Origin: Acidimicrobiaceae bacterium
Lineage (GTDB): Bacteria; Actinomycetota; Acidimicrobiia; Acidimicrobiales; RAAP-2
Direction: 5' to 3'
DNA: 47,600 nt
NCBI GenBank assembly: GCA_003132305.1
Contig: PKXJ01000032.1
Coordinates: forward strand, 1 to 47,600
Made by a program: the position numbers and the translations under genes. The notes under the pieces are model-generated. The model saw only the letters and a program-made list of their open reading frames with translations. It ran no database searches and was not told the origin of the DNA. Shown piece after piece: positions 37,612 to 47,600 of the stretch. Position 1 is the first letter of the stretch. Every line of letters begins with the position of its first letter.

Positions 37612-39033
37612 ATGAACACCCCCATTTCACCCTCTGATCTACCCACAACCCTTGGCGCCCTTCGCGCTTCGGGCTTCGAGTCGCGCTCCGTTCGAGACGA
37701 GATCCGTCGCAACTTAGAAGTTCGTCTCGCCGCGGGCGTGCCACTCACCTCGACCGTTTTGGGATATGAAGACACCGTCCTACCCCAACTCGAGACGGCG
37801 CTCCTGGCCGGACACGACATCATATTGTTGGGTGAGCGCGGACAGGCCAAGACTCGAATAATTCGCTCGCTGGTTGAACTGCTTGACGAGTGGCTGCCCA
37901 TTGTCGCTGGATCTGACGTTCGCGACGACCCCTTCAGCCCGATCTCGGCCTTCGGGATAGATCTCGTGCGCGATAAGGGTGACAAGACACCGATCAGTTG
38001 GGTCCATCGCAGTCAGCGTTTCGCCGAGAAGTTGGCCTCGCCCGATACGTCAATGGCGGACCTCATCGGAGAGGTCGATCCCATCAAAGTGGCGAACGGT
38101 CTCTACCTCGACGATCCGAAGGCCCTCAGCTACGGTCTCGTACCCAAGTCCAATCGCGGCATTTTTGCGATCAATGAGCTGCCCGACCTATCCGAGAGAA
38201 TTCAAGTCGGTCTACTCAACGTGCTCGAAGAGCGCGACGTGCAGATTCGTGGTCACCTTGTTCGTCTCGAACTCGACGTGTTGGTGGTCGCGACGGCCAA
38301 CCCCGAGGACTACACCAACCGCGGACGGCTCATCACCCCGCTGAAGGACCGCTTCGGGTCCCAGATCCGTACGCACTATCCCTTCGAAGTTGCCACCGAA
38401 ATTGAGATCATGCATCAAGAGGCCCACCTGCCGACCTCACCAGTACCCATCAAGGTGCCGTGGTTCATCAACGACGTCATCGCGCGCGTGAGCCACGTGG
38501 CGAGGCGTAGCCACGTCATCAGTCAGACCTCGGGCGTGTCCGTGCGTCTGTCGATCGCGAACTACGAAACGGTCATCGCGAACGCGCTGCGTCGAACACT
38601 GCGCACGCACGACGCGGTCGTCGTGCCGCGCGTGAGTGACCTCAGCGCGATGGTGCAGTCCACCCAGGGCAAAATCGAGTTCGACACCATGGACGACAGT
38701 GACGCCGATCAGGTCATCGCCGCCCTGGTGTCGCTCGCGATTCGCCAGTGCTTTAGTGACGTGCTCTTGGAAGAGGCGCCCGAGATCGTTGGGGCCTTTA
38801 ACTCTGAAGCCATCGTGCACACCGGCGACGACTTGCCCGATGCCGACTACTTGGCGGTCCTCGCGGCGATGCCCGCACTCGCGGCACCGGTCGAGCGAAT
38901 TGCCGGACCCCACGCGAGTGACGGCGAGAAGGCCGCGGCCGTCGAGTTCGTGCTTGAGGGTCTCTACCTCACCAAGCGCCTCGCGAAGGACGCCTCGGGA
39001 GCGAGGGCGCTCTACCGCTCTAGGAACCGATAG
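37612..39033 (+). CDS. MoxR-type AAA+ ATPase (magnesium-chelatase-like)
   Basis: A 473-residue AAA+ ATPase of the MoxR/ChlI-like group. Walker A is GERGQAKTR. The Walker B region reads IFAINELPDL, with Asn where most AAA+ proteins have Asp, but I recall that this sequence is shared by close relatives. Other elements are the sensor-1 region VVATANPEDYTNRGR and the arginine-finger segment LKDRFGSQIRTHYP. MoxR proteins act as chaperones with VWA partners to mature enzyme complexes or respond to stress; the partner here is the next gene, which starts on the last base of this stop codon. AAGGTG lies about 5 bases before the ATG. Confidence 0.9.
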   Translation: MNTPISPSDLPTTLGALRASGFESRSVRDEIRRNLEVRLAAGVPLTSTVLGYEDTVLPQLETALLAGHDIILLGERGQAKTRIIRSLVELLDEWLPIVAGSDVRDDPFSPISAFGIDLVRDKGDKTPISWVHRSQRFAEKLASPDTSMADLIGEVDPIKVANGLYLDDPKALSYGLVPKSNRGIFAINELPDLSERIQVGLLNVLEERDVQIRGHLVRLELDVLVVATANPEDYTNRGRLITPLKDRFGSQIRTHYPFEVATEIEIMHQEAHLPTSPVPIKVPWFINDVIARVSHVARRSHVISQTSGVSVRLSIANYETVIANALRRTLRTHDAVVVPRVSDLSAMVQSTQGKIEFDTMDDSDADQVIAALVSLAIRQCFSDVLLEEAPEIVGAFNSEAIVHTGDDLPDADYLAVLAAMPALAAPVERIAGPHASDGEKAAAVEFVLEGLYLTKRLAKDASGARALYRSRNR

Positions 39034-41027
39034 TGCCCGTTCGCTACGGCTTTCGTCGCTTCTCCGAGGACGACGACTTTAACGACCTCGACGTTGAAGA
39101 GTTGCTGGCCCACTTGGCCGACGACTTCATGGAGAGCGGCGACCTCGACGACGCCATGGACCGACTCTTGCGCGAGGGCTACACGAGCGAGGACGGCGAG
39201 CGGGTCGAAGGGCTGAGAGAACTCCTCGACCGCACCAGAAAGAAGCGCCGCGAACTCGAGCAACAGGGTGACCCCGACGGCGAGATGCAACGCTACCGCG
39301 AGTGGCTCGAGGACATCGAGGCCATGGAATCCAGTGAGCTCGCCGAACTTCTCGCCGACGCCGAGGCCTCCAGCGACGAACGTCGTCAAGAGGTCACGCG
39401 CGACCTCGTCGATCAGAAAAAGATGCAGCGTGAACTCATGAGCGACTCGCTCGGCGATCGCTTGGGCGAGTACCAAAACTACGAGTTCGTGTCGTCGAAG
39501 GCCCGTGAAGAGTTCGAGGAACTCATGAGCGAACTCCAACGCGACGTGCTCGACACGTACTTTCAAAACTCGAAGGAGTTCATGGGTCGCCCGGACCCCG
39601 AAGCGCTCGCGCGCACGCGCGAGATGATGGACGCGCTGTCAACCATGATCGAACAAGACCGCCGCGGAGAAGAACTTGATCCCACGTTTCAGGACTTCAT
39701 GGAGAAGTTCGGCGACTTCTTTCCGGGCGCCGAGAGTCTCGAGGACGTCGTGCGAGCCATGGCCGAGCGCGCGGCGGCCGCCGAAGCCATGTTCAACTCG
39801 TTGTCCGCGGAGCAACAGGGAGAACTGCGCGCGCTCTTTGACGAAATGATGCAGAACATGGAGTTGAACTTTTCCATGAATCGGCTCATCTCCAACCTGC
39901 GCCAGGCGACCCCCGACATTGATTGGAATCGCGCGCACCGCATGCGCGGTCAGGACGGTTCGCCCTTCGCCCAGGCCGCCTCGGTCGCGGAACAGCTCGG
40001 CCAGTTAAGGGGCCTCGAGGACTTTCTGGGCCAGAGTCACGCCGCCCAGGGACTACCCGAAGTTGACGTAGAGGCCGTTCGGCGTAACCTCGGCGACGAC
40101 GCCGCGCGCCACGTCCAACGTCTCCAAAGGGCGCTCCAGGGACTCAAGGATCAAGGTTTCATTGATCGCCAGAGCAATCGACTGAAACTGAGCGCGAAGG
40201 GCATTCGAAAAATCGGTCAGATCGCCCTGAAGGATCTCTTCAACCAGCTTCACGACTCCCCGACCGTCGGGGCGCACCCGGTCGCGACGTTGGCCCGAGG
40301 CGGCGATCGCGAGGAGACGGCGAAGCCCTGGGAACCGGGCGAGGCCTTTTCGCTGCACCTGCCCAAGACGCTGAAGAACGCCCTCTTGCGCCAGGGCCCC
40401 GGCACGCCGATTCATTTGCACCCCGACGACTTCGAGGTGGAAGAGTACGAGGCGTCGCGACGCTCGTCGACGGTCTTCGCGATTGACCTGTCGCTCTCCA
40501 TGGCCATGCGCGGCAACCTCGTGCCGGCAAAGAAGATGGTGCTGGCTCTCACGCAACTCATTCGCTCGAAGTTTCCCCGTGACTTCGTCGCGGTCGTGGG
40601 CTTTGGCGAACGGGCGCAGGAGCTCAAAATCGACGACGTGCCGGCCCTCACGATCGACTACAACTACGGCACCAACCTCCAGCACGCGCTGGCGCTCAGT
40701 CGCCACCTTCTTCGTAACGAGCGCGGCGAGCGTCAGATCGTGGTCGTGACCGACGGCGAGCCGACGGCGCACTTGACGGCCTCGGGGGAGCCCTTCTTTT
40801 CCTGGCCCCCCGTCCAGGAGACGCTCGAAAAGACCATGGCCGAAGTGCTGCGAGTCACCAAGGCCGGCATCACGATCAACACCTTCGCCCTCGATATTGA
40901 GCGCAGCCAGTTTCCCTTCGTAGAACAGATTGCCCGCGTGAACGGCGGACGACTGTTCTACACCGACGTGGACGACCTCGGAATCTACGCCCTCGACGAC
41001 TTCGTCAAACACCGCCAAACGAGTTAG
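39033..41027 (+). CDS. VWA-domain protein, partner of MoxR ATPase
   Basis: A 664-residue cytoplasmic protein with no signal peptide. Residues 1-440 are acidic and mainly helical (for example DDDFNDLDVEELLAHL and repeated Glu/Leu-rich helices), and the C-terminal 200 residues form a von Willebrand factor A domain. Its metal-ion-dependent adhesion site begins with FAIDLSLSMAM near residue 484, and the later VVVTDGEPTAH supplies the second acidic loop. MoxR-VWA pairs are thought to insert metals or assemble complexes; the target is unknown here. GTG start overlaps the moxR stop by one base, so the two are translationally coupled. Confidence 0.88.
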   Translation: MPVRYGFRRFSEDDDFNDLDVEELLAHLADDFMESGDLDDAMDRLLREGYTSEDGERVEGLRELLDRTRKKRRELEQQGDPDGEMQRYREWLEDIEAMESSELAELLADAEASSDERRQEVTRDLVDQKKMQRELMSDSLGDRLGEYQNYEFVSSKAREEFEELMSELQRDVLDTYFQNSKEFMGRPDPEALARTREMMDALSTMIEQDRRGEELDPTFQDFMEKFGDFFPGAESLEDVVRAMAERAAAAEAMFNSLSAEQQGELRALFDEMMQNMELNFSMNRLISNLRQATPDIDWNRAHRMRGQDGSPFAQAASVAEQLGQLRGLEDFLGQSHAAQGLPEVDVEAVRRNLGDDAARHVQRLQRALQGLKDQGFIDRQSNRLKLSAKGIRKIGQIALKDLFNQLHDSPTVGAHPVATLARGGDREETAKPWEPGEAFSLHLPKTLKNALLRQGPGTPIHLHPDDFEVEEYEASRRSSTVFAIDLSLSMAMRGNLVPAKKMVLALTQLIRSKFPRDFVAVVGFGERAQELKIDDVPALTIDYNYGTNLQHALALSRHLLRNERGERQIVVVTDGEPTAHLTASGEPFFSWPPVQETLEKTMAEVLRVTKAGITINTFALDIERSQFPFVEQIARVNGGRLFYTDVDDLGIYALDDFVKHRQTS

Positions 41028-42253: not shown

Positions 42254-42505
42254 TTAGTGAAGTTCGCGGTTAAAGAGACGCAAACGACGGCGTTCGCGAA
42301 GTAGGCGGCGCCGCTCGCGCTCACTCTTGCCGCCCCACACGCCGTGGTCGATGTGATTGTCGAGCGCGTAGATAAGACACGAACTCGCGACCGGACACGT
42401 CACGCAGATTCGTTGAGCGATGATGACGCCCATTCCGTCACGGGGAAAGAAGGTCTCGGCCGGATACTCGCGACACTTTCCGTCGGCCATCCATTCGGTA
42501 GTCAT
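42254..42505 (-). CDS. WhiB-family transcriptional regulator (second copy)
   Basis: An 83-residue WhiB protein. Cysteines at 11, 34, 37 and 43 give C-x22-C-x2-C-x5-C for the [4Fe-4S] cluster. HGVWGGKSERERRRLLRERRR is the conserved turn and basic tail. The class is different from the 41149 copy (ICVTCPVASSCLIYALDN), nearer to WhiB1-like types, but not assignable with certainty. The ATG at 42505 follows GAGAGGGGG; a longer frame to 42571 has no family sequence. Downstream, the formiminotransferase gene follows in the same direction after 9 bases. Confidence 0.92.
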   Translation of the reverse strand: MTTEWMADGKCREYPAETFFPRDGMGVIIAQRICVTCPVASSCLIYALDNHIDHGVWGGKSERERRRLLRERRRLRLFNRELH

Positions 42506-42647
42506 ACTTACCCCCTCTCGCACCTCTGCCCTTACTTCTACTCTCACAGTAGCGACGTTGGAGGTCACCACCTGCCACCTTTCGTTCGCTCGTTCACGAG
42601 CATCTCGACCCTTATAAGTCCCTTAGAGATGAATCGAGAAAGTCCAG

Positions 42648-42695: not shown

Positions 42696-42974
42696 GTGAG
42701 CCAGGTCCCCACAACCGAAGTAACCGAAGTCGTTGACCCAGTGGGTCACGTCCAGGTCATCTACCTGGGTCCGGTGGCCCCGCACTGGGAGTGCCGCATG
42801 GTCTTTGGCGACGAGGAGCAGATCCAGGCCTTCGTCGACCGCGTGGACGCGCGACTTCGATTCTTGCCGCCGCACGACCCGCAGTTTCGCCGCAACCGCG
42901 AACGCGTGAATCGTGACGCCGAGCGTGAGAATCTACTCGTCGAGTGGAACCTCGGGTACGACGAAGAGTCTTAG
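42696..42974 (+). CDS. Small conserved-looking protein of unknown function
   Basis: A 92-residue soluble, acidic protein that I do not recognise. The first half looks beta-rich (HVQVIYLGPVAPHWECRMVFG), followed by helical, charged sequence (DEEQIQAFVDRVDARLRFL, then RRNRERVNRDAERENLLVEW). The GTG start has AAGGAG 5 bases upstream, strong evidence that it is translated. It is divergent from the second whiB and its stop overlaps that of the convergent zincin-like gene by 4 bases. Confidence 0.7.
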   Translation: MSQVPTTEVTEVVDPVGHVQVIYLGPVAPHWECRMVFGDEEQIQAFVDRVDARLRFLPPHDPQFRRNRERVNRDAERENLLVEWNLGYDEES

Positions 42975-44095
42975 GCCAGCGGCGAGGTCGTCACTCGCTC
43001 GTACCACGCGTTGGGATCGTAGAGTTCGCTCGCACTCGGCAGACCGTCCACGCGAAGGAGCGCTCCAAAGACACTAAGTGAGTGCTCGGCCACGAGCGTC
43101 GACACGAAAGTAGTCGCCGCGTCGTGATGGGGACCCTGCGTTGAGATACCGAAGAGCGCGGCGGCCGCGTCCTCGCCGCGCGCGTCACTTCGACGGTGGC
43201 GGGTGTAGGCCTCGGCGAGCGCGGGACGAGGTCCGAGCAGCTTCTCGGTGATGTCGTGCGCGGCGGCGCTGAAGAAGGCCAGCAGCACACTGGCGGCGGC
43301 GTTGACGGCGCGCGTGGCGTCACTCTCTTCGGGTACCTCGATGCCGTCGAGCAGGGACTCGGGATTGCTCATCATCTCGTTGATGTCGCCGGACTCCATC
43401 AGGGTCTGCAGGCGCTCCATGAGATCGCCCTGGATGGCGTTGGCCTCGTTCACGGTGTCGATGAGGAGGGCTCGGAGGGCGTCACTGGTCCCCGGTTGGG
43501 TTAAGACCAGTGAGGCCACGAACTCTTGGGCCAGGGCGAAGACGTAAACCTCGTCGCGCTCGAGGGACCACTCGGTGGCGAAGTTGGCCAAATTATTGAC
43601 GACGAGAAGGTGTTGGTCGTTCAACCGCGGCAGGGGCAGCACCGCGAGCGACCACGCGCGCGCGGAGAAGTGGCCCGCCACCGAGCCCATCTGAAAGCCC
43701 GCGAAGAGCGGTCCGATCGTCGAGGAGATCTGCGCGATGAGCTGATTACTCGATTCGTCGAGCTCCTCACTCGTTGACGCTGGCGCGTTCGGGATCATGG
43801 GTTTCATCAAAGGACGCCACTGTTCGAGCGCGGCGATGGTCAGAGCCGATCGGTTCACGGCCACGACGGAGGGTTCCCTCGAAGCGCCAAAGAGGGCGTC
43901 GACGTGTCGACCCACGAGTGGTGCCAGCTCCTCGAGGCGCTGGCGCTCAATGGGTTGGGGATTAGGGTCACCGTCGTCACCTCGGGCGATGTTGAGCGCG
44001 AGCTGGGTGGCGGTCGTGAACCAGGTGTCTGGTCCTTGCTGGCTCAACATCGAAAAGATGTCGCCGAACATGTCGCCGAAGGGGTTGGTCGTCAC
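42971..44095 (-). CDS. DUF2342 zincin-like protein with degraded HExxH site
   Basis: A 374-residue protein resembling the actinobacterial DUF2342/zincin family (mycobacterial Rv3195-like), judged from the MGSVAGHFSARAWSLAVLPLP and LLVVNNLANFATEWSLERDEV segments and the late acidic helices. The zinc motif that should follow is changed: at 190-194 it reads QEFVA, so both zinc histidines are absent and only the Glu remains. Protease activity is therefore unlikely; a binding role is inferred. The gene overlaps the HtrA-like gene upstream by 4 bases. In mycobacteria, to my knowledge, the homologue sits beside a YlbL-type PDZ protein, also found here at the right edge. Confidence 0.75.
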   Translation of the reverse strand: MTTNPFGDMFGDIFSMLSQQGPDTWFTTATQLALNIARGDDGDPNPQPIERQRLEELAPLVGRHVDALFGASREPSVVAVNRSALTIAALEQWRPLMKPMIPNAPASTSEELDESSNQLIAQISSTIGPLFAGFQMGSVAGHFSARAWSLAVLPLPRLNDQHLLVVNNLANFATEWSLERDEVYVFALAQEFVASLVLTQPGTSDALRALLIDTVNEANAIQGDLMERLQTLMESGDINEMMSNPESLLDGIEVPEESDATRAVNAAASVLLAFFSAAAHDITEKLLGPRPALAEAYTRHRRSDARGEDAAAALFGISTQGPHHDAATTFVSTLVAEHSLSVFGALLRVDGLPSASELYDPNAWYERVTTSPLA

Positions 44096-45186
44096 GGCAC
44101 CAACTTAGAGGGGCAGCCGAGCGTCACGTTCGCTTGGACCACCTTTGACTTCTGATCAAAGGTCAGGTGCGCCGACGTGTAGGCGGGCGTCAGATAGAGC
44201 GTCGACACTAGTTGATCCCAGTTGTCAATGTCCGTGCCGTTCCACTCGGTCAAGATGTCACCCACGGCGACGTTGGCGTGCGCGGCCGCGCTGTAGCGCA
44301 CGACCTTGGTCACCACGACGCCCCCGCCCTGTTCGTCCTTGCCGTTGACGCCAAGTTCCGCGTGACAGCCGTGTCCCGTCGCGACGACTTCGGCCACGCG
44401 GGCGACGAAGAGGGCCGGGTACCAGAAGTGACGTGACGACAGTACGGCTACGACGTGACCCTGCGAGTCGATCGCGATCGCGTCGACGTAACTACTCAGG
44501 CTCGTGTCGGACTTCGTGGCCAAGTAGCGCACGACTCCCTGGGCGTTGATCAGGGGGTCGCCGAGCGTGGTCATGGACCAGTCGTACTCGGGTGTCTTCG
44601 TCGAGCCGCGCACGATCGGCGCGACGGCCACGACTGACGTACTCGCGGGCATCGCGTCGAGTTTCATCGCCACGACCGGAACGCTCAAGTGCACGATGGA
44701 AAAGCCCATGACATTGTCACGGCCCTTGAGCGTCACGGGGAAGTTCACCCTGGTGGCGGTGGAACCGGTGATGAGTGCGTTCACGGGAATAGTCACCGTC
44801 GTCACCGCCAGATCGTGCGGCAGCACCAGCGCCGAGACGTGCAGCACGTGACCCGGCGTCGTGATCGTGAGGTCGACGGTGTTCTGGGCGGCGGCCCGAC
44901 TCGACGCCGGCAGCAAGCTGAGTTTGGTGGCCAAATGTGCCGGTAGATCGCCGTTTGGCGTGCCCGAGCCTCGATTGACGATCAGCACGACACCGCCCAC
45001 CACTAAGAGTACGGCCATGCCGCCCGCGATGATTCGCGGAATGGTCGGGCGAGAGTGTACGCCGGTCGTCGTCGCCAGCGTCTCAAAGCTCGGGAGTTCA
45101 CTCGGATGGACCCAGGGACGGCTCTCAGCCGGAGGTCGCGCGCGGCGGCCCCTGCGCCACCACCTCGTTCTATCCCAACCAGCCAC
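44092..45186 (-). CDS. Membrane-anchored HtrA-like PDZ protein, catalytically degenerate
   Basis: A 364-residue protein. A basic cytoplasmic N-terminus with RPWVHPSELP, a motif frequent in actinobacterial membrane proteases, precedes one membrane helix (IIAGGMAVLLVVGGVVLIV, about residues 52-70). The outer part has a trypsin-like layout and a C-terminal PDZ domain (from about residue 275: VRYSAAAHANVAVGDILTEWNG). The usual TNAHVV, DLAV and GNSGGP stretches are not recognisable; the last is replaced by SSYVDAIAIDSQGHVVAVL. It looks like a pseudoprotease that binds peptides. GTG start; the zincin gene follows with a 4-base overlap, and the MreB-like gene is divergent 57 bases away. Confidence 0.7.
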   Translation of the reverse strand: MAGWDRTRWWRRGRRARPPAESRPWVHPSELPSFETLATTTGVHSRPTIPRIIAGGMAVLLVVGGVVLIVNRGSGTPNGDLPAHLATKLSLLPASSRAAAQNTVDLTITTPGHVLHVSALVLPHDLAVTTVTIPVNALITGSTATRVNFPVTLKGRDNVMGFSIVHLSVPVVAMKLDAMPASTSVVAVAPIVRGSTKTPEYDWSMTTLGDPLINAQGVVRYLATKSDTSLSSYVDAIAIDSQGHVVAVLSSRHFWYPALFVARVAEVVATGHGCHAELGVNGKDEQGGGVVVTKVVRYSAAAHANVAVGDILTEWNGTDIDNWDQLVSTLYLTPAYTSAHLTFDQKSKVVQANVTLGCPSKLVP

Positions 45187-45229
45187 CCTGTGCAGGCTAG
45201 TTACGAAAGGCCTCTCGCTGGCATCGCCC

Positions 45230-45235
45230 TAACAT
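45230..45235 (+). promoter_or_regulatory. Possible leaderless promoter -10 of the MreB-like gene
   Basis: TAACAT ends 8 bases before the ATG at 45244, and there is no ribosome site between them. This matches the TANNNT-plus-short-gap pattern of leaderless actinobacterial transcripts. Confidence 0.45.
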
Positions 45236-45243
45236 CACTACTC

Positions 45244-46248
45244 ATGGCTGTAGACGTTGCCCTTGACATTGGCACCTCGCACACGCGCTTGGCGACAAGT
45301 CAACGGGGCGTCCTCTTCGATGAACCCACCATGGTCGCCATCGACACCAACACGGGCGTCGTCGTGGAAGTCGGTCACGGCGCGCTCGATCTCGTTGGTC
45401 GCACGTCGCGACACGTGATCGTGTTTCGACCCTTCAACCAAGGCGCCACCGTCGACTTTGACGTCACGTCGCGGCTCATCGCGTCGCTGTTTGATCGCGC
45501 GGGCGTTTCCAAGATGAGCCGAGCACGGGTCGTCATGAGCGTCCCGTCCTTGGCGACGGCCATCGAACGACGCGCGCTTCGCCAAGCCGCCATTCAAGCG
45601 GGTGCGCGTGAAGTCTCTCTGGTGGAAGCGCCGCTCGCGGCCGCGATTGGTCTAGGCCTGCCGGTCCAAGACCCCGTGGGATCGGCGGTGGCGCTGCTGG
45701 GCGCGGGCGCGTCGGAGGCGGCGGTCATCTCCTTAGGGGGCATCGTCACGGGCGCAACGCGCCGACTTGGTGGCAACGACGTGGACGCCGCTATTGCGAC
45801 GTCGCTACGACTCCACCTGGGCGTGGTCGTGGCGCCGTCGGTCGTCGAGATGCTGAAGTGCACGCTCGGGTCCGCGTTGGGAAGAACGGCCGGACTCTCG
45901 GAAGTGGTGCTCGCGCGAAGTGTTGATCGAGGCGAACTCGTCGAAGTGGAAGTGAGCGCCGAGTTGGTGAACTCGGCCGCGTACGACGTACTCAACTCAA
46001 CCGTGCGCATGATCCAAGAGTGCCTCAGCGATACCCCGCCCGATCTCTCCCAGGACGTCAGCGCGAGGGGCATGACGCTGGTCGGGGGACAGGCCAACCT
46101 ACGTGACGTCGACGAGCTCGTCGCCACGGCGACGGGCGTAGAGGTGAACGTCGCCAACCAGGCCGACCTCGTCGTTATTCAAGGACTTCAGGCCTGTCTC
46201 GAAGAGATGGCCTCGCTGCACGCGCTGTTTCGCAGCGCCGATCGCTAG
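45244..46248 (+). CDS. MreB-like actin homologue lacking catalytic acidic residues
   Basis: A 334-residue actin-fold protein aligned over its full length with MreB. The phosphate-1 loop is DIGTSHTRLA (8-17), the connecting region has RVVMSVPS, and the adenosine loop reads GMTLVGGQANLRDVDELV. Two catalytic positions differ: the EEP motif reads VEAP (Ala129 for Glu), and the phosphate-2 motif, normally DIGGGTTE, reads LLGAGASE (Leu151 for Asp). ATP hydrolysis is therefore unlikely, though nucleotide binding or copolymerisation could remain. The upstream frame to 45055 is not MreB-like and lies antisense to the HtrA-like gene. Its stop overlaps that of the HEAT gene within CTAG. Confidence 0.8.
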   Translation: MAVDVALDIGTSHTRLATSQRGVLFDEPTMVAIDTNTGVVVEVGHGALDLVGRTSRHVIVFRPFNQGATVDFDVTSRLIASLFDRAGVSKMSRARVVMSVPSLATAIERRALRQAAIQAGAREVSLVEAPLAAAIGLGLPVQDPVGSAVALLGAGASEAAVISLGGIVTGATRRLGGNDVDAAIATSLRLHLGVVVAPSVVEMLKCTLGSALGRTAGLSEVVLARSVDRGELVEVEVSAELVNSAAYDVLNSTVRMIQECLSDTPPDLSQDVSARGMTLVGGQANLRDVDELVATATGVEVNVANQADLVVIQGLQACLEEMASLHALFRSADR

Positions 46249-46877
46249 TCGTCGTCACTTCGAAGCTGCGTGACGGCCGAGCGCACCTGCCAGTCACGGT
46301 CTTCACCGGCCTCGTCGAGCGCGGCGTCGATGTCGGGGCCTTCGAAGTTCGACAGCGCCACGATCGCTCGACGACGAATCGCCGGTTTGTCCTTGAGCGA
46401 CTCGATGATCGTCGAGCGTCCGCGGTCGTCGCCGATGGCGCCGAGTGCGGCAATGGCCGACTCGCGACAACGCGCGTCCTCGTGTTCCTTGGCGACCCCA
46501 CAGAGGGCCACGACCGCGTCAACGTAGAGGTGTTCACCGAGAACGAAGGCCGCGCCCTCCACCACGAGCGCGTCGTCGTCATCGAGCATTCGTACGACCT
46601 CGTCCAGTATCGAAGGATCCTCCAGCGGCGCGTGCGCCAACTGTTGCAGGGCTTCACGACGCGTCTCGACGTCACCATCGTGAAGGGCGCGAAGCCACAG
46701 GTCGTGCGTCATCATCGACTGACGCACCAGTCCGCGAAGCGCCAGCACCCGTCGACGAGCGATCGATGATTCAAAGCTGTCCATCAGCCGCGCGACGCTC
46801 GCCTCGCCGGGAGTGAAACTTGCGCGTAGCAGTTCGTTCTCAAAGGGCTCAACTAGCGTTGGTTCATCACTTGGCAC
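46245..46877 (-). CDS. HEAT-repeat protein
   Basis: A 210-residue helical protein with about four HEAT-like repeats of roughly 31 residues, for example DVETRREALQQLAH, DALVVEGAAFVLGEHL, DARCRESAIAALGAIGDD and KPAIRRRAIVALSNFEGPD. Such repeats form a curved binding surface with no catalytic site. The GTG start lies only one base after GGAGG, so initiation may be leaderless or atypical. It is convergent with the MreB-like gene (stops overlap by 4 bases) and divergent from the YlbL-type gene. Confidence 0.8.
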   Translation of the reverse strand: MPSDEPTLVEPFENELLRASFTPGEASVARLMDSFESSIARRRVLALRGLVRQSMMTHDLWLRALHDGDVETRREALQQLAHAPLEDPSILDEVVRMLDDDDALVVEGAAFVLGEHLYVDAVVALCGVAKEHEDARCRESAIAALGAIGDDRGRSTIIESLKDKPAIRRRAIVALSNFEGPDIDAALDEAGEDRDWQVRSAVTQLRSDDD

Positions 46878-46883
46878 CCCTCC

Positions 46884-47600
46884 ATTCCATCATCTAAAGC
46901 AAACCGTCGTCGCGCGTGGCGCAACCTGGCCATCCTGCTCGTGTTGTTGATCATCTTCCTTGGGCTGGAGACCATTCGCACCAACGAGTTTGCGATTACG
47001 CCCGGCAACGCGACGCCGGTGGCGCCGCTGGTGAAAATCGCCGGCGTCGCCACGAACCCGCACCACGACAAGATCATGCTCGCCGACGTGTACCTGCAGC
47101 AGTTAACGCTGTGGGATTGGATCGGCTTTCACTTTCAATCGCACGTGCAGTACTTGAGAACCAACCAAGTGGTCGAGCCCGGCATCCCCACCCAGGAACT
47201 CGAAGCGCAGGGATTTCTTCAGATGAGTGACGCGAAACAGGCCGCTGAAGCGGCCGCCTTTCGAGCGATCGGCTGGACCATTCCCGCCACGAACTCAGGG
47301 GCTGTCATAAACGGGGTCATCGCGCCCTCGCCCGCGAAAATGGCCGGCCTTCACGTGGGCGATGAGATTGTGGGCGTCAACGCAGCGACGATACGTACGG
47401 AGTGTCAACTCATTAGTTACACCCGCAACCTCGCGCCCGGAACGGCGTTGACGTTGAAGGTTGAGCGTGTCACGATTTCGAGCCAGGGCGCATTGTCGTA
47501 CTCTTCGACGTCCAGCGTGAAGTTAACCACCGGGACGGTTCCGAATCTGGAAGTGGGCTCCTCGGGATGCCCGGGTGTCTCGGGTATCGAGAAGTCGTTC
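46884..47600 (+). CDS. YlbL-type PDZ membrane protein, 5' part (3' end outside window)
   Basis: The frame encodes a basic N-terminus, one membrane helix (NLAILLVLLIIFLGL), a YlbL/Lon-like domain beginning EFAITPGNATPVAPLVKIAG, and a PDZ domain (INGVIAPSPAKMAGLHVGDEIVGVNA, within residues about 150-190). YlbL proteins are membrane-bound PDZ-Lon-type peptidases; the catalytic part lies beyond the window. The start is unclear. From the in-frame TAG at 46854 there is no ATG, GTG or TTG before the membrane helix; a GTG at 46941 would cut the helix. An ATT at 46884 is used here as a tentative start. Confidence 0.75.
   Translation, partial: MPSSKANRRRAWRNLAILLVLLIIFLGLETIRTNEFAITPGNATPVAPLVKIAGVATNPHHDKIMLADVYLQQLTLWDWIGFHFQSHVQYLRTNQVVEPGIPTQELEAQGFLQMSDAKQAAEAAAFRAIGWTIPATNSGAVINGVIAPSPAKMAGLHVGDEIVGVNAATIRTECQLISYTRNLAPGTALTLKVERVTISSQGALSYSSTSSVKLTTGTVPNLEVGSSGCPGVSGIEKSF

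Follow-up and report, generated by a model that had tools for sequence, protein, structure and literature searches.

In a stretch of 47,600 nucleotides from an Acidimicrobiaceae bacterium (contig PKXJ01000032.1, assembly GCA_003132305.1; hereafter the window), three adjacent genes encode proteins of unrelated enzyme folds, a zincin, an HtrA-like membrane protein and a paralogue of the actin homologue MreB (here MreB2). All three have lost residues of their catalytic sites, and all three have evolved under purifying selection. We tentatively propose, as a reading that could well prove wrong, that they belong to a non-catalytic envelope scaffold that would have arisen stepwise from an old actinobacterial module.

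The window sits within a contig of 452,928 bases, in a genome of 2.9 Mb, and holds five genes from position 42971 to its end, located where the initial annotation had placed them. The features on which the analysis rests are the following:

42971..44095, minus strand: Zincin_2 protein, 374 amino acids (Pfam PF10103, E=1.4e-24, 87.5 bits against a cut-off of 25)
43514..43528, minus strand: position of the HExxH zinc site, reading QEFVA, with the Glu kept and both His lost
44092..45186, minus strand: HtrA-like protein with a predicted cytosolic tail, a hydrophobic helix (residues 50-71), a trypsin-like fold without triad, and a PDZ domain
45094..45114, minus strand: WVHPSEL motif (residues 25-31), in the tail that precedes the membrane helix and is presumed to be cytosolic
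45244..46248, plus strand: MreB2, MreB paralogue, about 334 amino acids (MreB_Mbl, PF06723, E=7e-78 over 322 residues)
45628..45630, plus strand: codon at CcMreB E140 (catalytic Glu), Ala
45694..45696, plus strand: codon at CcMreB D162, Spiroplasma MreB5 D156 (Mg-coordinating Asp), Leu
45709..45711, plus strand: codon at CcMreB T167 (water-positioning Thr), Ala
46245..46877, minus strand: HEAT-repeat protein, 210 amino acids (HEAT_2, E=1.6e-16)
46941..47600, plus strand: YlbL, PDZ-Lon membrane protease, cut by the window edge (PDZ_2, E=1.2e-9)

Three enzyme folds without their catalytic residues

The initial annotation had described the zincin, the HtrA-like protein and the MreB-like protein as deprived of the zinc histidines, the triad and the catalytic acids, respectively, and these losses were confirmed by Pfam profiles, structure models and alignments. 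The zincin falls in Zincin_2 by profile, scores below the cut-offs of TIGR03624 and TIGR03883, and gave an AlphaFold2 model (predicted local distance difference test score, pLDDT, 81) whose sole structure match at E<=0.001 was the putative Chloroflexus hydrolase 3cmn (E=1.3e-5, template-modelling [TM] scores 0.62/0.76). Its HExxH site was absent from all 37 loci of the genus (the own locus plus 36 others): both zinc histidines were lost in 36, the remaining one (L072) keeping the first. Intact sites were found in 5 of 21 zincins from the rest of the order, in 9 of 20 class loci with MreB2 and in 2 of 14 without it (one of these two, L211, from genome G063, whose MreB2 status is unclear). In the phylum, the count was 8 of 20 for loci with MreB2 and 0 of 10 for YlbL and/or UPF0182 loci without it, against 16 of 16 for zincins outside the locus, among which L198 and L212 were counted after inspection. 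In the comparison made with the genus loci, HExxH was present in 4 of 4 paralogues taken from outside the locus. The 0/10 figure rules out zincin loss as a peculiarity of this cluster, and the protein is possibly a pseudo-metallopeptidase across the phylum, to judge by its residues. Text matches to HExxH in 5 of 64 named zincins were dismissed, as all lie in the C-terminal part, off the site. In other actinobacterial families (L258-L263, L269-L270, L275) the zincin beside YlbL/UPF0182 reads mostly RExxH or TExxH.

In the HtrA-like protein Pfam recognized a PDZ domain only (PDZ_2, E=5e-8). Its AlphaFold2 model (pLDDT 75.5; predicted TM score 0.66) was matched by Foldseek to DegP, DegQ and mycobacterial HtrA along some 300 columns (best E=5.4e-16), the matches being modest (query TM 0.40-0.54, root-mean-square deviation 5-8). 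A profile of the genus proteins aligned by hhalign with intact HtrAs of the class (E=6.9e-16), with Gly at the catalytic Asp and the Ser stretch in a gap. The trypsin-like fold and PDZ domain of HtrA/DegP are thus present and the His-Asp-Ser triad is not; as it was visible in none of the 23 HtrA-like proteins of the genus, we regard these as pseudoprotease relatives and not as member proteases. Beyond the genus, 7 of the 37 MreB2-bearing loci from the order and class kept an intact triad, versus 12 of 13 proteins from genomes without MreB2 (Fisher test; p=4.5e-6, uncorrected for kinship). In this table a fragment (L080_ctrl) was excluded, L177 was scored as lost because its domain is eroded, and L187 was moved from the control to the MreB2-bearing group, being the sole HtrA-like gene of its locus.

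MreB2 shows the MreB/Mbl fold over its full length by sequence (E=4.8e-54 against the CcMreB structure) and scores below the NCBIfam cut-offs for mreB subfamilies. CcMreB numbers were taken from the alignment, the offset placing the catalytic residues at E140, T167 and E169 (PMC4051119, PMC9597168), from which D162 follows. The E140 position was Ala in 33 and Ser in 4 of the 37 genus proteins, Gln in 24/24 order and 19/20 class proteins, and Glu in 17/20 phylum proteins. D162 was replaced in all 37 genus loci (Val, Leu, Ile, Thr or Met) and kept in 24/24, 19/20 and 20/20 order, class and phylum loci, and T167 was also lost in 37/37 genus proteins. All 21 canonical MreBs fetched kept Glu, Asp and Thr. 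Among 66 close named relatives (61-91% identity), E140 corresponded to Ala or Ser in 59 and could not be parsed in 7. MreB2 is therefore predicted, from these substitutions, not to hydrolyse ATP. The protein from the other genus of the own family (L177) is intermediate, with Gln, a kept Asp and a changed Thr. A hydrophobic residue is kept in the MreB2 loop before the RPR/RAR stretch (KLSRAR, KMSRAR). In one class locus (L196, genome G073) Pro replaces the Glu and Val the Asp, a worn zincin adjoins MreB2 and no HtrA was found; it is apparently a separate case of degenerate MreB2 and the only D162 loss outside the genus among these loci. A canonical MreB is encoded elsewhere in the own genome (G000:C26), followed by open reading frames (ORFs) resembling MreC and MreD by eye, which rules out MreB2 as the sole MreB of the cell.

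Altered catalysis is another way to read these sites: the zincin would use other ligands around its kept Glu, and MreB2 would still turn over nucleotide through E169 and its retained first phosphate loop. The zincin Glu is indeed retained in 37/37 genus loci, H142, H300 and H323 are invariant in 40 aligned zincins, and the equivalents of D12, T and E169 are kept in 37/37 genus MreB2 proteins, the own one included. We nevertheless find this quite improbable, since three ATPase positions were lost together and at least one zinc His is missing from every zincin of the genus.

Conservation of the locus and selection on its genes

In the 37 genus loci, where some misses fall at contig ends, the zincin and MreB2 were found together in 37, the HEAT gene in 36, YlbL in 34, a DivIVA-type gene in 33, a UPF0182 gene in 31 and the HtrA-like gene in 23. 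The best MreB2 match in other families of the order gave 24 loci from 23 families, with the zincin in 21, the HtrA-like gene in 22 and the HEAT gene in 20; 23 of 24 genomes were fetched, G057 (f22), whose partial match lies at the end of a contig, was left out, and G052 gave two loci. The latter are two zincin-HtrA-MreB2-HEAT blocks on different contigs (L091, L095) with closely similar MreB2. Nine of the 20 HEAT genes lie more than 1 kb from MreB2, and gaps between zincin and MreB2 reach 3.2 kb in other families. The 20 MreB2-bearing places fetched from the class (L177-L196; 17 from other orders and three from the own order) all had the zincin, and 15 had the HtrA-like gene. Of the 92 genomes sampled from other classes, 21 had a zincin and an MreB side by side, and these 21 belong to six families. 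The 20 phylum loci, chosen for this adjacency (20 of 21 fetched, G215 being the other), had the two genes divergent in 20, YlbL in 19 and UPF0182 in 14, with neither HEAT nor HtrA between zincin and MreB in any of the 20.

Of the 80 matching loci kept, 66 are the nearest named relatives and carried the zincin in 64, the HtrA-like gene in 44, the HEAT gene in 63 and YlbL in 60, the other 14 being Bacillota-like MreBs at 34-38% identity. Most of the 66 are titled as Acidimicrobiaceae, Acidimicrobiales or Actinomycetes metagenome-assembled genomes (MAGs), many labelled palsa, bog or fen, and a few titles say Acidobacteria or Saccharibacteria. The group is uncultured, and many of its members come from peat.

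Median dN/dS ratios (nonsynonymous to synonymous substitution; Nei-Gojobori) in five groups of near relatives were 0.03-0.10 for MreB2 and 0.03-0.16 for the zincin, and 0.11-0.22 for the HtrA-like gene in three groups; for comparison, UPF0182 gave 0.12-0.19 and the PDZ part of YlbL 0.10-0.32. These low values indicate that the zincin, the HtrA-like protein and MreB2 are working proteins under purifying selection, and they rule out pseudogene decay for the three. Accordingly, we give next to no weight to the idea that the locus consists of decaying pseudogenes or is an artefact of metagenome assembly. Two undetermined bases interrupt ylbL just past the window and nearly all named relatives are MAGs, yet the frames are open, dN/dS is far below 1 in independent genomes, and the 66 close loci are recorded under many isolate names.

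The losses go beyond chance, as the zincin and MreB2 sites are lost in each of the 37 genus loci and the fetched paralogues are intact. Because intact residues occur in relatives from the order, class and phylum, the losses came in steps and differ in age: as read from the alignments, Glu changed to Gln in MreB2 of the class, the HtrA and zincin sites were lost repeatedly, and the genus lost all three outright. The initial annotation had asked for gene order and lost residues to be conserved across Acidimicrobiia, and had held that homologues with intact residues at scattered loci would speak against a joint system. Gene order proved to extend well past the genus: the block recurs, with gaps, in the class and in 23 further families of the order. 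The residues are lost in the genus loci that bear the genes, but relatives include those counted above with an intact triad or HExxH.

A tail motif that follows MreB2

The predicted cytosolic tail of the HtrA-like protein carries a motif, W-x-H-P-[STA]-E, that was present in MreB2-bearing genomes in 21/23 genus, 22/22 order and 13/14 class proteins (strict counts from whole re-read frames) and in 0/13 proteins from genomes without MreB2. L187, outside the 14 class proteins strictly re-read, also carries it, making 14/15. The proteins without the motif despite MreB2 are L071 and L072 in the genus and L192 in the class. A looser pattern combined with a guessed membrane helix gave 22/23, 19/22 and 13/15, respectively.

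At the DNA level the motif pattern matched the own genome once, at the HtrA-like gene. Across 38 genomes there were 20 matches, 12 at the HtrA-like gene and 8 elsewhere, with 12 for a reversed control. The pattern misses G038 and G042, two of the 14 genomes that encode a motif-type HtrA, since Val follows the Glu there. A general membrane-protein signal is unsupported, the 8 off-gene matches being at the level of the control. Genomes without MreB2 still have the zincin, with UPF0182 in 16/18 and a DivIVA-type gene beside UPF0182 in at least 7/18. Because these genes persist there, the motif tracks MreB2 and not them, and MreB2 is the best-fitting partner.

YlbL, the HEAT protein and the surroundings of the locus

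The initial annotation had counted YlbL within a cluster of apparently dead enzyme folds. That description suits the zincin, the HtrA-like protein and MreB2 but not YlbL, whose Lon part lies past the window edge: the gene runs to about window position 47956 (the start codon is uncertain, the frame being open from 46857), and Lon_C (E=5.9e-15) shows GGPSAGL and EEK. With a Lon-type Ser-Lys dyad present, YlbL is by its residues not a dead enzyme, and it has the make-up of a YlbL-type protein, a transmembrane segment (judged by eye), PDZ and Lon with the dyad. Ser and Lys were found in 32 of 34 genus YlbLs, the remaining two being cut short, and, by a strict pattern that sets a lower bound, in at least 13/15 order, 7/17 class and 13/19 phylum proteins. 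Two N at window 47601-47602 break ylbL, with the PDZ and Lon parts in different frames around them; because of this break in the own genome the two parts were read apart.

An intact protease beside a dead one recalls MamO, a dead HtrA relative that activates MamE proteolysis (PMC4794232). By analogy, the main role of the dead HtrA could be to bind YlbL or a canonical HtrA, as the active protease, and to activate or restrain it, with MreB2 only positioning the dead partner. In five loci (L073, L078, L186, L193, L195) an HtrA gene with an intact triad lies on the far side of a gene for a 92-residue protein, so that intact HtrAs do occur nearby in several relatives. We consider such a regulator unlikely, as YlbL persists in genus loci that lost the HtrA-like gene.

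The five genes are close-set, as had been noted. The zincin and HtrA-like genes overlap by 4 bp on the same strand, HtrA-like and MreB2 are divergent with a gap of 57 bp, and MreB2 and HEAT are convergent with a 4-bp overlap, which recurs in 24/36 genus loci. Their alternating strands and divergent or convergent spacing show, on the other hand, that they are not one operon. A promoter and terminator scan of the locus gave signal near chance. Past the window edge, the Lon part of YlbL is followed by a protein of 555 amino acids that begins with a DivIVA domain at its N-terminal end (PF05103, E=9e-8), and by one of 965 amino acids of the UPF0182 family (E=1.7e-242). The 92-residue protein (window 42696-42974, plus strand), without Pfam match, adjoins the zincin across the genus and in several other families. 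Most genus loci keep, upstream of the block, a pair of genes for a MoxR-like ATPase and a VWA-domain protein (window 37612-41027), and a second WhiB gene (window 42254-42571, minus strand) was in the genus often not found in loci without the HtrA-like gene.

A proposed non-catalytic scaffold weighed against separate roles

The initial annotation had interpreted the cluster as a protein-binding assembly. This fits the data, and the cytosolic motif tracking MreB2 provides a concrete link. The HtrA-like gene is absent from 14/37 genus loci, having been lost several times with MreB2 retained, and 5/20 class loci have MreB2 without HtrA; it cannot, therefore, be an obligate part. The zincin site is lost phylum-wide, with or without MreB2, and the zincin Glu survives throughout the genus. 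L192 combines MreB2 with an intact HtrA lacking the motif. In a quick tree, the tree used throughout, the families without MreB2 (f30, f35, f38) group as a single clade (support 92, not starred) within the canonical-MreB part, so that a single evolutionary event may underlie the contrasts in motif and triad. The 13 HtrAs without MreB2 come from 12 genomes, of which G121 has no MreB match and G137 has a second fragment that is canonical-like. The MreBs that adjoin zincins in the phylum were named MreB2 by synteny and do not form one group in the tree, L244 lying with canonical MreB. A docking patch on the MreB2 surface was sought by setting loci that carry the HtrA-like gene against those that lack it; no clear signal emerged, and no patch relaxes in the latter. 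All of these points weigh against a scaffold.

Several of them would be explained if the proteins merely shared a neighbourhood, an ancient zincin-YlbL-UPF0182 locus in which each took a separate non-catalytic role and independent losses only seem concerted. Loss of the zincin site regardless of MreB2 and HtrA, the dispensability of the HtrA-like gene, the alternating strands and the wide zincin-MreB2 gaps all agree with this. Retention of the order in 23 other families and a tail motif seen only with MreB2 do not, and we take separate roles to be possible but rather doubtful.

According to the scaffold reading, the ancestral envelope module would have been zincin | MreB2-YlbL-UPF0182, old in actinobacteria, and in Acidimicrobiia it would have gained the HtrA-PDZ membrane protein, the HEAT protein and the DivIVA-domain protein. 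The zincin, HtrA and MreB2 would then have become non-catalytic binding proteins step by step. MreB2, which keeps part of the nucleotide pocket, may hydrolyse slowly in most of the class, where Gln has replaced the Glu, and not at all in the genus, and so could form a long-lived cytosolic filament or platform beneath the membrane. The HtrA-like protein would dock on it through the cytosolic WxHPSE tail, as a membrane tether, and would display its dead trypsin-like domain and PDZ outside, where the PDZ side might be read by YlbL, the sole intact protease, with a conceivable role in growth or division. In a bolder form, a non-hydrolysing actin homologue, a WxHPSE-docked transmembrane pseudo-HtrA and a pseudo-zincin would relay signals from the envelope to YlbL as a pseudo-enzyme cytoskeleton anchored in the membrane, basic to most Acidimicrobiia and fully non-catalytic in the genus; this we regard as conceivable, with considerable doubt.

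Related systems

The zincin/YlbL/UPF0182 gene group of actinomycetes, which we take to be Rv3193c-Rv3195 of Mycobacterium tuberculosis, shares the divergent zincin | YlbL-UPF0182 arrangement and a zincin with RExxH or RExxR (L258-L262), but no MreB2, HEAT, DivIVA-type or HtrA-like gene was found between in these loci. In magnetosome gene clusters the actin-like protein MamK is encoded with MamE and MamO; MreB2 is not a MamK, as it scores 28.5 bits with the NCBIfam MamK model, far below the cut-off of 400, though other magnetosome genes were not searched for. There, as here, an actin-like protein is encoded with HtrA/PDZ membrane proteins. One of these is a dead protease in magnetosome clusters too, and pseudoproteases arose repeatedly (PMC4794232).

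Spiroplasma MreB3 and the MreB5 E134A variant offer a close parallel for MreB2, a paralogue beside other MreBs in the cell with an altered E...T-X-[D/E] motif. MreB5 E134A is ATPase-deficient and still assembles (PMC9195046), and MreB3, with its altered site, polymerises with slow Pi release (PMC9597168). The Spiroplasma proteins serve the swimming of wall-less cells, whereas here a canonical mreB and MreC/MreD-like ORFs are present; moreover, MreB2 is encoded next to membrane PDZ proteins and has in addition lost the Asp that binds Mg, unlike MreB3. YlbL of Bacillus subtilis likewise joins a transmembrane segment to PDZ and Lon domains, has a Ser-Lys dyad and, with CtpA, keeps down the division inhibitor YneA; the passages of that source name no MreB, zincin or HtrA neighbours (PMC6051672). 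Taken as analogies, Spiroplasma MreB3/MreB5, MamO and B. subtilis YlbL show that each proposed step is possible.

None of the papers listed in the literature searches names UPF0182 or DUF2342 in title or abstract. Pairing MreB with the term Acidimicrobiia gave no paper; the shorter stem Acidimicrobi gave three. In this locus the loss of catalysis by three unrelated enzyme folds can be followed step by step across a class, with the examined paralogues intact, which makes it a natural series on an actin homologue without ATP hydrolysis and on enzymes becoming scaffolds. The W-x-H-P-S-E motif provides a direct handle on the question of binding, and the locus may give a lead on UPF0182 and on the zincin encoded beside it.

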